64,000 nucleotides of DNA from Candidatus Roseilinea mizusawaensis (lineage in GTDB: Bacteria > Chloroflexota > Anaerolineae > J036 > Brachytrichaceae): assembly GCA_016841965.1 (NCBI GenBank), contig JAEANN010000059.1:1-64000 (forward strand). Reading direction: 5' to 3'. Below the pieces are notes generated by a model. The model was given only the letters and a program-made list of their open reading frames with translations. It had not been told where the DNA came from and did no database searches. A program made the position numbers and the translations under genes. This document shows positions 3,593 to 62,483 of the stretch, piece by piece; the stretch's first letter is position 1, and each line of letters begins with the position of its first letter.

Positions 3593-4552
3593 ATGGAGTA
3601 TTGTAATCAACCCGCTGATGGCAGTCATACACCCGTGGTCCTTCTTATCGTTAGTGCATCGCGTAGTGGCAGCACCGTCCTGTGTAATCTGCTGGGCCAG
3701 ACTAAAGGTGCGTTTGGGGTGGGTGAACTACACCGTCTGTGGGATACAGATGCATTCCCCAATCGCATGTGTAGCTGCGGGGAACTCGTTTCACAGTGTT
3801 CGGTCTGGCGCTCAGTGCTGGAAGCGTGCTATGGCTCGTCTGAGCCAAATTCGTTACGAGCGGTCTTTGCTGAAATTCAACGCCATCGCGATGCCTGCAC
3901 GCGCGTGCGCCATATGCTTGCGCCGTTTCAACCCTCTCAGCTACGCGCGCATCGCCAGCATTATTTGAGTGCGCTTGAAGCGATCTACGCGGCGATTCAG
4001 AAGACGACCGGTTGTCGAGTCGTGGTGGATGCTTCTAAGCTGCCTGCCTATGCAGCCGTTCTGCTCGATTCTTGCAAGTTGGACGTGCGCGTTGTATTCT
4101 TGGTGCGCGATGCACGGGCTACTACCTTTTCCTGGCAGCGGCGCAAGACCACCACAGTTCGTGGTCGTGTGTTCACCACAGCGCAGTACAGCCCGCTGAT
4201 GAGCGCTAAAGAATGGCTCATCACCAACTGGGCGGCGGAGCGCCTGGTTAGCCGTTTGAAGCCCGACCGGTATGTGCGCCTGCGTTACGAAGATCTGATG
4301 CGCCGCCCTCGGCAGTGTTTGTGTCAGATCGCGCGCTGGGCCGGCATGAATGAGGACGACCTGCCGTTGCGCGGCCTTGATCAAGCGTTCCTGTCCACCG
4401 CACACTTGCTGGCCGGCAACCAGAATCGCTTTCGTACCGGCTTGATCTCCTTGCGCCCTGACGAAGAATGGCGTAGCGCGATGGGTCGCTCAGAACGCTG
4501 GCTGGTGAGCTTGCTGACTGGGCCTTGGCTACGACGCTATGGATACCTATGA
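3593..4552 (+). CDS. Sulfotransferase family protein
   Basis: This is a PAPS-dependent sulfotransferase of about 319 residues. The 5'-phosphosulfate-binding loop is SASRSGSTVL near the N-terminus. The 3'-phosphate-binding segment VVFLVRDARATTFSW lies mid-protein and supplies the Arg and Ser ligands. The C-terminus has RLRYEDLMRRP, a feature common to PF00685/PF13469 enzymes. I use the ATG at 3593; the ATG at 3548 would add 15 residues and neither has a good ribosome site. It sits inside a glycan-synthesis locus, so the likely acceptor is the exported polysaccharide or its lipid. Sulfated glycans are not a usual expectation for this kind of bacterium, which makes the gene notable. Confidence 0.82.
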   Translation: MEYCNQPADGSHTPVVLLIVSASRSGSTVLCNLLGQTKGAFGVGELHRLWDTDAFPNRMCSCGELVSQCSVWRSVLEACYGSSEPNSLRAVFAEIQRHRDACTRVRHMLAPFQPSQLRAHRQHYLSALEAIYAAIQKTTGCRVVVDASKLPAYAAVLLDSCKLDVRVVFLVRDARATTFSWQRRKTTTVRGRVFTTAQYSPLMSAKEWLITNWAAERLVSRLKPDRYVRLRYEDLMRRPRQCLCQIARWAGMNEDDLPLRGLDQAFLSTAHLLAGNQNRFRTGLISLRPDEEWRSAMGRSERWLVSLLTGPWLRRYGYL

Positions 4553-11935: not shown

Positions 11936-13386
11936 TCGCGCGTTCCTCTACCGCGGCGGGCCATTCTGTGCTGAAACCGCTGGCGTTAATCTTAGTTGGC
12001 TTCGCGCTGCGCACCGTCAACCTGGGCGCCTTTGACTTCTGGTTCGATGAGGTCGGGCAGGTGTTGGCCGGTCGGTCGTTGTCGCCGGTGGGGGCGGTTC
12101 AGGCAGCAGCGGAGCATCTGGGGGCTGCGCCGTTGGACTATCTGGTGACCTGGGCCGGCGTCCGCGTCCTGGGTGAGAGCGAATTTGGGTTGCGCTGGAT
12201 TACCGTGTGTTGGGGCACGCTCACCCTGGCGCTGATTTACGCAGCCGGCGAGCGCATTCAACGCGGTATTGGGGGCTGGGCGGCTTTGCTGGCGGCGCTC
12301 TCGCCGTTGGCAACGCGTTACGCGCAGGAGGTGCGCTTCTATGCCCTATCGCTCATGCTATGTGCGCTTCTCCTGTGGATCGGAGTGCGTTGGCAAGCAA
12401 GGGGAAGAGGGTGGAGCGTGGCTATGGCCGCGTGCATGACGCTGGGCCTGTATGCTCATGCCTACACTGCGCTGGTGTGGCCATTTGTTGGCTGGGTGTT
12501 GATCGTATGTGCACAGGGCGCGCGTCGTCGGGTGCTGGCGCAGTTTATCCTTGCTGCAGCGTTTGCCCTGGCTTGCTTTTCGCCTTGGCTGTTTGGCGAG
12601 TTGTTGACAGAGCGCCTGCCGAACTTCGCAGATGTTGCCGGCTTCAACCTTGAAACAGCGCGTCGAGTTCTGGCCGGCTGGGAAATGCCGAACTTTTCGC
12701 CCGTGGCGCCGAGGAATACTGCCGGCCAGCCGCTGCCTTATCTGATCGGCGGCTTACACCTTATCGCGCTGTTTGAGGCGGTAAGGCGGGTGCGCACAAC
12801 GCCGCTCTGGTTGGGTACGCTGGTCATCTATGGGCTGGCGACGCTAATGGTCGTAGTCAATGACATGCGTGTGGGCTACTTCTTTGCGCCACGCCAGATT
12901 CTGAACTTGCTGCTGCTGCGCGCGATGTTCGGCGGGTGGGTGTTGCGTCAGTTGGCCGAGTTGGCGCAGCGCCGATTGGGCAGGCCGGCGGGTTTGATTT
13001 TGGCCGGCGCCGTGCTCGTTCTCTCAATCCCCTCGCTGCTTGCATACTACTCAAACTGGCGCGATAAGTCCAACGCCGGCCAGGTCGCGGCGTTGATTGC
13101 GGAATGGAAGCCGCAGCACCTCTGGATTGCCCCAGCCTACGATCAACTCACCATGAATTATTACCTGGAACGGCGAGGTTACTCGGCTGCTGTATGGCAG
13201 AGCCTGCTCGACGCGCAGGATGCTCTGCCGGCATTGCGGGTGGATGGGTCGGCCGTAGTAGTATTGCAAGCCGCGTACGCTGAACCGGAAACGGTGCTCA
13301 TGCTGCGAGAGGCAGGGTTCGTCGTTGCATGGCCGGAGTCTGGAGTGACGGGTAATGAACACTTCGTGGTATTCGCGCGGCGTTAA
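11932..13386 (+). CDS. GT39-like polytopic glycosyltransferase
   Basis: This is a membrane protein of about 484 residues. The likely start is the TTG at 11932, which overlaps the previous stop; the longer frame to 11818 lies inside the upstream gene. After the first helix comes FDFWFDEVGQVLAG, the conserved acidic loop of ArnT/PMT-type GT-C enzymes. Many hydrophobic helices follow, and a short soluble C-terminus ends ...VVFARR. Proteins of this kind move a sugar from a polyprenyl-phosphate carrier to an acceptor on the outer face of the membrane. The next gene overlaps it by 32 bp. Confidence 0.75.
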   Translation: MIARSSTAAGHSVLKPLALILVGFALRTVNLGAFDFWFDEVGQVLAGRSLSPVGAVQAAAEHLGAAPLDYLVTWAGVRVLGESEFGLRWITVCWGTLTLALIYAAGERIQRGIGGWAALLAALSPLATRYAQEVRFYALSLMLCALLLWIGVRWQARGRGWSVAMAACMTLGLYAHAYTALVWPFVGWVLIVCAQGARRRVLAQFILAAAFALACFSPWLFGELLTERLPNFADVAGFNLETARRVLAGWEMPNFSPVAPRNTAGQPLPYLIGGLHLIALFEAVRRVRTTPLWLGTLVIYGLATLMVVVNDMRVGYFFAPRQILNLLLLRAMFGGWVLRQLAELAQRRLGRPAGLILAGAVLVLSIPSLLAYYSNWRDKSNAGQVAALIAEWKPQHLWIAPAYDQLTMNYYLERRGYSAAVWQSLLDAQDALPALRVDGSAVVVLQAAYAEPETVLMLREAGFVVAWPESGVTGNEHFVVFARR

Positions 13387-58767: not shown

Positions 58768-60420
58768 CTATTCCCACTCGATTGTGGCGGGGGGCTTGGT
58801 GGTGATGTCGTAGGTCACGCGGTTGACGCCGGCCACTTCATTGACGATGCGGCTGCTGACGCGCGCCAACACGTCGTAGGGGATGCGCGCCCAGTCGGCA
58901 GTCATGAAGTCATCGGTGGTCACGGCGCGGATGGCGACGACCTCGTTGTAGGTGCGGCCATCGCCCATGACACCCACGGCGCGCACCGGCAGCAGCACAG
59001 CAAACGCCTGCGATGTGGCGCGCATGAGGTTGGCGCGCTGCAATTCTTCCTGCAAGATGGCGTCTGCGTCGCGCAGGCGTTCCAGGCGCTCCCATGTCAC
59101 GTCGCCCAGCACGCGCACGGCCAGGCCGGGGCCGGGGAAGGGCTGCCGCCATACGATCTCATCCGGCAGGCCGAGCGCCGAGCCTACTGCGCGCACTTCA
59201 TCCTTGAACAGATAGCGCAGCGGCTCCAACAGCTCGAACTGCATGTCTTTGGGCAGCCCGCCTACGTTGTGATGTGTTTTGATCTTGGCCGCCGCCTGGC
59301 GCTCTGGCCCGCGCGATTCGATGACGTCGGGGTAAAGCGTGCCCTGAGCCAGAAGGATTTTGGATTCTGGATTCTGGATTTGGGATTGGATTTGGGCGAT
59401 CTGAGACTCGAAGACGCGGATGAATTTCTCGCCGATGCGTTTGCGCTTGTCTTCCGGGTCGGTGACGCCTTGCAACGTTTCGAGAAATTCTTCGGCCGCG
59501 TTGACAGCAATCAGGCGCATTCCTTGCGCGCGCTGGAAGGTTTCGACGACCTGTTCGGCCTCGCCTTTGCGCAGCAGGCCGGTGTCCACGAACACGCAGG
59601 TGAGTTGATCGCCGACAGCCCGGTGGACGAGCGCCGCAGTGACGGAAGAGTCCACGCCGCCGGAGAGACCGCAGATCACGGGCCGGTCGCCGACCTGGGC
59701 GCGAATGCGCGCCACGCTTTCGTCGATGATGTTGGCCGGCGTCCAGTCTGCGGGGCAACCGCACACGCCGTGCACGAAATGGCTGATGATCTCGCGCCCG
59801 CGCTGGGTGTGGTTGACTTCGGGGTGAAACTGAAGCGCATACAGGTTGCGCGCGTCGTCGGCCATGCCGGCGATGGGCGAGTTGGCGCTGCGCGCAATGA
59901 CGCGGAAGCCGGGGGGCAACTGCTCCACCCGGTCGCCGTGGCTCATCCACACCGAGATTCTCGATTTTGGATTGTGCGTTGCGTATTCTGTGTTCTGGAC
60001 TCTGGATTCTGGATTCTGGATTCTGTGTTCTGTGTTCTGGCTTCTGTGCGTGTCTTCCCTGGGCAACAGCGCGCAGTGGTCGAATTCCACATCGGACTGA
60101 CCGTATTCGCGCTGGGTGGCCGGCGCAACGATGCCGCCCAGCGCGTGCGCCAGCACCTGCATGCCATAGCAGATGCCCAGCACCGGCAGCCCCGCTGCCA
60201 GCACATAGTCCGGGAGGGTTGGGGCGCCGGCGTCGTACACGCTGTTGGGGCCGCCCGACAGGATGAACCCGCGCGGACGCAGCGCCATGACTTGCTCAGC
60301 CGGCGTATCCCAGGCGAACAGCTCGCAGTACACGTTTGCCTCGCGCACCCGGCGCGCAATGAGTTGCGAGTATTGAGAGCCGAAATCGAGGACGGCGATC
60401 GTGTGGTTGTGCAGCGTCAT
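58768..60420 (-). CDS. guaA: GMP synthase (glutamine-hydrolysing) with two repeat-derived inserts
   Basis: The 550-residue enzyme aminates XMP to GMP. The GATase domain has Cys84 in GICYGMQ and His199/Glu201 in QFHPEV. The ATP pyrophosphatase has the P-loop GLSGGVDSS (about 251-259), [13 protein letters not shown], and the C-terminal dimerization domain with [12 protein letters not shown] and [18 protein letters not shown]. Two in-frame inserts are made of 7-bp tandem repeats: residues about 126-155 (just before VWMSHGD) and about 342-355 (before LAQGT). They account for the extra length over the usual 510-525. TATAAT at 60431-60436 lies 10 nt before the ATG, with no ribosome site. Confidence 0.97.
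59356..59397. repeat. 7-bp tandem repeat inside guaA (second insert)
   Basis: On the minus strand the array reads as AATCCAR units (AATCCAG, AATCCAG, AATCCAA, AATCC and degenerate copies before them). It is translated as QIQNPESKI-like residues and keeps the frame. Confidence 0.85.
59956..60045. repeat. 7-bp tandem repeat inside guaA (first insert)
   Basis: About twelve or thirteen units of consensus CAGAAYM on the minus strand (CAGAACA, CAGAATC, CAGAGTC, CAGAATA, CAAAATC and similar). Because 7 is not a multiple of 3, three units make a 7-residue peptide repeat ([28 protein letters not shown]) without stop codons. Confidence 0.9.
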
Positions 60421-61913: not shown

Positions 61914-62483
61914 TCACTGCGCCAGGGCTGGCGATGTTTCGTGCGCTGCGCCCTGGCGTATCTTTGTCTCCAGCGCCGCCTGAACCAGCAAGCGGTGTGT
62001 ATAGCGCCTTTCGACCTCGCTCCACAGCGCGCACGTGAGCAATAGCAATTGTGTCCCGTCTCGACGGTAAATAGAGCGCACCTCACGGTTGTGCAACAGG
62101 CGTTGTCCCTCAACTCGGTAGCGCCAGGCGCGCCCATCCTGAGTGCGCACCATCACCAGATCATTCCGGCGCAAGACACCCAAACCGTAAAACGGGCCAC
62201 GCACATCGCCTTCCAACGTCACATGGCCGGCCAATACCATGGCCAGCGCATCTCCCGGCCAGCGACCGGTGGTTTGCAACAGGCCCACTTCGCGCGCGCC
62301 AAGCCGGCTCTCATCCCACGCCCCATTGACGATGGGCAGCAGCACCACCGGCGCATCGCGCAGCCCAAGCGCCGGGATGCTCAACGCCGCCGGCGGCGAT
62401 GGAGCAACAGCGCCCACCCCCGGCCACGCCAGCATCAGCCCGGCCAGCGCGCGCAATGCCTCGCGCCTGCTGACCGGCCTCAT
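61914..62483 (-). CDS. Sortase family transpeptidase
   Basis: The 189-residue protein has the sortase triad: His87 in LAGHVTL, Cys151 in LLLTCA and Arg164 in YTHRLLVQA. The N-terminus reads VSRREALRALAGLMLAW, a signal-anchor that also resembles a twin-arginine (Tat) signal. The start ATG at 62483 overlaps the stop of the upstream LPGTG protein by 4 bp (ATGA); the longer frame upstream is an out-of-frame reading of that gene. It should attach or cross-link the upstream substrate at the cell surface. The substrate-recognition loop is too divergent to name a sortase class with confidence. Confidence 0.88.
   Translation of the reverse strand: MRPVSRREALRALAGLMLAWPGVGAVAPSPPAALSIPALGLRDAPVVLLPIVNGAWDESRLGAREVGLLQTTGRWPGDALAMVLAGHVTLEGDVRGPFYGLGVLRRNDLVMVRTQDGRAWRYRVEGQRLLHNREVRSIYRRDGTQLLLLTCALWSEVERRYTHRLLVQAALETKIRQGAAHETSPALAQ

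Follow-up and report, generated by a model that had tools for sequence, protein, structure and literature searches.

How does a tandem repeat with a seven-nucleotide unit come to lie within the gene for GMP synthase, although one would expect genes to exclude a repeat whose length is not divisible by three? The locus belongs to Candidatus Roseilinea mizusawaensis AA3_104, a hot-spring metagenome genome of the order Thermoflexales, Chloroflexota (as introduced in PMC8446752). In the window (the whole 64,000-nt stretch of DNA analysed), guaA occupies positions 58768 through 60420 on the minus strand, and its open reading frame has no internal stop throughout its 550 residues. The product is a full-length glutamine-hydrolysing GMP synthase by profile search (NF000848, 764 bits, profile positions 1 through 512 of 512), and its predicted model (mean pLDDT 85.5, pTM 0.85) matches solved GMP synthetases including 1gpm. 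C84, H199, and E201, which we take to be the catalytic triad, are all among the invariant columns of 55 aligned sequences. The full-length match and the intact frame bear out the sequence-only reading, which had named a GMP synthase gene as the host of the repeat.

The array described in that reading (site 1; residues encoded by 59956 through 60046, minus strand) consists of degenerate CAGAAYN heptads that keep the frame of the amidotransferase domain and precede the VWMSHGD motif. On the coding strand, nine units are clear and share a register (CAGAAGC, CAGAACA twice, CAGAATC three times, CAGAGTC, CAGAACA, and CAGAATA), and about four decayed ones lie toward VWMSHGD; the stricter CAGAAYM consensus first proposed fits only seven of the nine. 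Tandem Repeats Finder calls period 7 at 59985 through 60046 (8.9 copies, 83% matches) and period 21 at 59986 through 60048. Self-identity of the loop DNA reaches 0.55 at lag 7, compared with 0.20 to 0.32 at lags 3 through 6 and 8 through 13. The view of a single array was incomplete: guaA also holds a second one (site 2; 59355 through 59396, minus strand), preceding LLAQGT, at a site where some relatives also carry heptads. All units in the two arrays share a single orientation, and identical units never exceed three in a row. The model has pLDDT <50 at residues 129 through 148 of site 1; at site 2 it has a helix up to residue 347 with pLDDT in the 80s. As modelled, the appearance of a disordered loop looks limited to site 1.

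Comparison of GuaA across relatives, based on one genome per species, shows that the site 1 insert is absent or differs in length. The REYG-to-SHGD stretch spans 50 residues in R. mizusawaensis (G000), 41 in its sister species G001 (GuaA 94% identical), 31 in G002 (no heptads), and 21 to 30 in the 23 other family members read; GuaA was not found in 2 of the 28 family genomes searched. The insert is in frame, lineage-specific, and placed in what the model suggests is a loose loop, as had been proposed. It is not the only long loop at this position, since G047 has a 41-residue loop without heptads, which indicates that the loop tolerates length in general. Heptads at these two sites also recur outside Roseilinea. 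At site 2, long inserts built from other heptads (such as CAGGGAT and CGGGAGT) occur in G021, G023, and G027, and a metagenome-assembled genome of the Chloroflexi (L047, GuaA 62% identical) has its own site 1 array with units CAGGAGT and CAGCTTC. When 119 GuaA rows were scanned by lag (threshold 20 of 28; at least five rows are second copies of one genome), 13 scored at lag 7, whereas lag 6 gave 3 rows, lag 8 gave 1, and lags 4, 5, and 9 through 11 gave none. Eight of the 13 lie at site 1 or 2; two are second copies, two have the signal elsewhere (L078 and L090), and one (G044) is a low-complexity palindrome of another kind.

The guaA arrays are not isolated in the genome, which comprises 3,855,811 bases in 59 contigs. 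A lag-7 scan of the window plus 40 position-set stretches (863,972 bp; 22% of the genome) detected 39 arrays. The control lags 5, 6, 8, 9, 10, and 11 gave 1, 7, 4, 7, 4, and 5, respectively, and shuffling the sample in 60-bp blocks left no lag-7 array. Gene calls from a purpose-built Markov model (623 genes, 87.8% of the sample coding) place 18 of the 39 within predicted genes and 21 outside them (54% intergenic). Genes are therefore some eightfold poorer in arrays per base than intergenic DNA, yet far from empty, and the expectation that such repeats are usually intergenic, with guaA the exception, needs revision in its second half. Over the whole genome, the heptad pattern has 203 matches with up to two mismatches, against 9 for a backward control. 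The vocabulary of units in this unbiased sample is broad, with 36 of the 1,172 possible doubled units occurring; the commonest, ACCACTC, is doubled in 6 of the 39 arrays. GGG and CCC are absent from the guaA units and from the 12 commonest units of the sample, except for AAATCCC (doubled in 2 of 39).

Several features beside these counts were seen during the scan. An intergenic inverted pair of guaA-type heptads (CGATTTTGGG.. / ..AATCCAAAATCG; 42727 through 42774) lies hairpin-like between two minus-strand genes, and similar pairs were seen by eye at 12922 through 13081 of stretch L181 and between both arrays at 462 through 875 of L185. Very long intergenic arrays occur at 4361 through 4557 of L180 (197 bp) and 18310 through 18480 of L179 (171 bp), with units TTACTCG/C and GAGTGNT. 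Period-12 repeats, which lay outside the control-lag set (5, 6, and 8 through 11), are also frequent in the window plus L169 through L188, with 21 arrays in 464 kb, of which 18 lie within predicted genes. At 61914 through 63190 of the window (minus strand), a gene that appears sortase-like by eye adjoins a Thr-Pro-repeat protein with an LPGTG end.

The proteins that host arrays are diverse. Within the sample, matches above curated cut-offs identify GuaA (two arrays), RecN, LeuS, HypF (two), PurD, PurB, a GlyA-GcvT fusion, and an Agl23-type protein; a PfkB kinase is assigned by Pfam, and matches below NCBIfam cut-offs suggest DEXH-helicase-like (two), amidohydrolase-like, and FHA-like proteins. 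Three of the 18 in-gene arrays sit in two large predicted proteins. Four of the 18 are at gene ends, three of these with an uncertain start or stop call (the FHA-like protein and the N termini of PurB and PfkB) and the fourth at the C terminus of HypF. Beyond the sample, hosts picked because of their pattern matches include PurL/Q (five arrays), a class-III aminotransferase (two), SsnA, a chelatase-like VWA protein, and a membrane protein; PurL and SsnA also exceed their NCBIfam cut-offs.

What allows such arrays in genes can be read from the arithmetic of the unit. Because 7 leaves a remainder of 1 on division by three, a pure unit leaves either every frame of a strand open or none, and its peptide is independent of phase, so that the only bars to a gene are the net length of the array, its stop content, and the peptide itself. 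Any frame of a pure unit yields one heptapeptide up to rotation: QNPESRI for CAGAATC and QNPKSKI for CAAAATC, with DSGFWIL and DFGFWIL as the respective antisense peptides. Units such as CAGTAGT and GAGTGAT have a stop in every forward frame. The sequence-only reading had stressed that the guaA array avoids stop codons; the array is indeed open, but this is no separate feature, as none of the six frames of the pure unit contains a stop. In the sample, all three coding frames are open in 11 of 18 in-gene arrays compared with 7 of 42 intergenic strands (p = 0.0014); the same is true of 805 of 2000 randomly drawn coding segments of similar length, from which the 11 of 18 do not differ significantly (p = 0.09).

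Orientation is a further property of the in-gene arrays. Mean A+C of the coding strand is 0.69 for the 18 in-gene arrays and 0.49 for 15 co-directional intergenic ones (p = 0.0025), and 27 of the 28 arrays in the union of in-gene arrays exceed 0.5. Where both strands are open, the A+C-rich strand, which encodes the hydrophilic peptide, is the coding one in nine of nine cases (p = 0.004). The sister species G001 has 27 arrays in 193 kb of stretches partly selected for known matches; 15 are in genes, 13 of these with A+C >0.5. The A+C-rich orientation is a Roseilinea trait: the GuaA site 2 arrays of G021, G023, and G027 have A+C of 0.31 to 0.43 and a purine-rich coding strand, the value for L047 is 0.49, and the peptides of all four are, by eye, hydrophilic nonetheless. 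The aromatic orientation does occur in parts of in-gene arrays (DFEISDFGLPI in LeuS; AISDFGF in PurL of G001, A+C 0.34).

Arrays turn over between species in other hosts as well. Array length differs between G000 and G001 at six of seven sites (27, 0, 3, 21, 9, 60, and 12 bp); all differences are multiples of three because intact frames were compared, and this is not an independent test of frame. Only one of the seven equals a step of 21 bp. The 21-bp, three-unit step of the sequence-only reading is no rule for change between species, with 27 bp at site 1 of guaA as an example. The WIGKSEG-to-TTRPDT stretch of LeuS has 30 residues in G000 and 31 in G001 with a different unit (CAAAATC and CAATCGT, respectively), 28 in G002, 79 in G022 and 31 in G009 (both with other heptads), and 14 to 23 in the 14 remaining relatives read; G018 is without one of the motifs. 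The in-frame LeuS insert (L170, 10916 through 10991) is itself an inverted pair, GATTTTG..CAAAATC, and a candidate mRNA hairpin within the coding region. Four stretches of PurL differ in G001 by +7, −3, +20, and +4 residues relative to G000. Heptad peptides are present in both species, and other genera mostly have short loops there; G002 shares heptads at one stretch (QNTQHGAQSTESRIQNSE), and at another G023 carries heptads of its own. The PurD insert is present in G000 and in none of the six relatives with a readable site; five further relatives had no readable site, and G001 gave weak array-like matches only. In the GlyA-GcvT fusion (L198, 6186 through 9437) the linker consists of heptads in G000, G001, and G002. 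We considered whether the array had driven this fusion and rejected the idea, as the fusion occurs without a heptad linker peptide in G009, G022, G014, G018, G006, and G012; it is common to genera g5 and g8, whose linkers are without heptad peptide.

Across the phylum, 48 of 301 genomes contain the CARAAYN pattern with up to one mismatch; within the family, 14 of 28 do. The reversed control pattern outnumbers it in G021, G023, and G024 (62 to 192 control matches), which points to other heptad families there. In G251, a heptad-rich genome of another family, one of ten sampled arrays lies in a gene and lag 8 gives 6 arrays to 10 at lag 7, so neither the intragenic share nor a sharp period of 7 is general.

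Any account of the guaA insert has to accommodate the presence of arrays in frame, their turnover between species, and the orientation bias in Roseilinea, all of which were observed directly. We consider it probable, though well short of certain, that the insert is one of a genome-wide set of STRR-like heptamer arrays that grew by slippage and were kept in genes by four filters, with the peptide tolerated. A limited vocabulary of units (CAAAATC, CAGAATC, CAATCGT, CACTCAN, and relatives) would recur along the chromosome, the arrays growing and shrinking by replication slippage in 7-nt steps combined with some form of spreading. To persist in a gene, an array would need a net length that is a multiple of three, as follows from the intact frames, and a unit whose coding strand has no stop, since the ribosome meets every phase. 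The coding strand would be the one that yields a hydrophilic peptide; in Roseilinea this strand is rich in A+C and gives Q-N-P-K/E-S-K/R-I rather than the aromatic DFGFWIL. The bias itself is observed, and this filter would be its cause. Finally, the site would be a loose loop or linker, which the predicted model supports for site 1 of GuaA and insertion at length-variable sites suggests elsewhere. Judged from sequence, the array peptide most likely has no function of its own and is merely tolerated by its host.

The strongest competitor dispenses with a dispersed family: each array would arise from polymerase slippage of 7 nt in place, and similar units would reflect a mutational word preference. 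According to PMC4679880, a preference for 7-nt slippage was proposed by Mrazek et al. 2007, and several of our results suit this reading. The longest run of units shared between arrays is no longer than in unit shuffles (p = 0.36); an array in PurD and an intergenic one share 41 bp, but 36% of shuffles do as well, and copying judged by unit order was rejected. The flanks of 61 arrays, searched for the common ends of a mobile element, contain no 14-mer in more than two. The 39 arrays, moreover, draw on a broad vocabulary of 36 doubled units, and near relatives fill the same LeuS loop with different units. Against this reading, one doubled unit among 1,172 possible ones recurs in 6 of the 39 arrays, and a universal polymerase preference does not predict the patchy presence of CARAAYN across the family and phylum. 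On balance we regard in-place slippage as unlikely, although a real contender. More doubtful still is the bolder form of the dispersed-array account, in which Roseilinea would possess mobile, translation-compatible heptad DNA, encoding one hydrophilic heptapeptide in three frames, able to enter genes in any phase and forming a standing source of loops and linkers, with the same sites refilled by an active generator.

That the insert has a function, such as that of a flexible linker suited to hot springs, a peptide mediating interactions, or a phase-variable switch in purine synthesis, deserves little credence. The idea of a switch comes from the fact that one unit gained or lost shifts the frame, and purine enzymes are indeed among the hosts (GuaA, PurL/Q, PurD, and PurB) and the hydrophilic orientation is favoured. 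The remaining hosts are unrelated (RecN, HypF, LeuS, and a helicase-like protein), however, lengths are rarely kept between sister species, and model confidence at GuaA site 1 is low. Phase variation in particular was rejected, the guaA tracts being too impure for fast switching. Least probable is an ordinary hypervariable loop that is low in complexity by chance, or an assembly artefact. The equally long, heptad-free loop of G047 and the metagenomic origin of the assembly could be cited in its favour; the specificity of period 7 and the related arrays borne at the same sites by G001, a separate genome, argue against it. Annotators should not assume that low-complexity inserts of this kind in metagenome genomes are assembly errors. 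Arrays at many loci in core enzymes are natural insertion experiments that mark loops of GuaA, LeuS, PurL, and RecN that may tolerate extra residues, and with the intergenic arrays of this genome as reference, slippage and purifying selection become measurable.

Rickettsia palindromic elements are longer palindromes of defined sequence found in frame in many unrelated genes. The Roseilinea arrays likewise enter unrelated protein genes in frame but differ from those elements in having no conserved palindrome with defined ends. Phase-variable simple sequence repeats are slippage-prone tandem repeats in genes, where a long pure tract shifts the frame as it gains or loses length. They resemble our arrays in being slippage-prone and intragenic; those of Roseilinea are short, impure, and in housekeeping enzymes, with frames intact between the species compared, and the guaA arrays contain no long pure frame-switching tract. 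Closer in unit length are the TAACTGA heptamer repeats of Beggiatoaceae, for which it has already been reasoned that stop content per orientation governs where repeats can enter genes; they too form heptamer arrays but occur particularly upstream of start codons, and their forward orientation has a stop (PMC4679880). A search of titles and abstracts of open-licence papers returned no report of in-frame heptamer arrays in Chloroflexota, which does not prove absence, and the main text of the genome description (PMC8446752) contains no word starting with "repeat". The nearest relatives are the STRR, or heterogeneous heptamers, with units GGGAATC (GGGANTN) in Xanthomonas and GGGGA(C/T)T in Nostoc, which share with the Roseilinea arrays a degenerate 7-nt unit, dispersal as numerous arrays on either strand, common inverted pairs, and length variation between near species (PMC4692102). 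The 39 lag-7 arrays have such a degenerate tandem unit and are dispersed in many copies with recurring units. Per base they are enriched outside predicted genes, yet only 21 of the 39 (54%) lie there, whereas the intergenic share is 89 to 93% in Xanthomonas and 68% in Nostoc (PMC4692102). The Xanthomonas and Nostoc units are also G-rich (PMC4692102), with the runs of three or four G per unit of G-quadruplex heptamers, whereas the Roseilinea units have no G runs and their arrays lie in frame in core enzymes. Dispersed heptamers are therefore already known; an intragenic load of this size is new.
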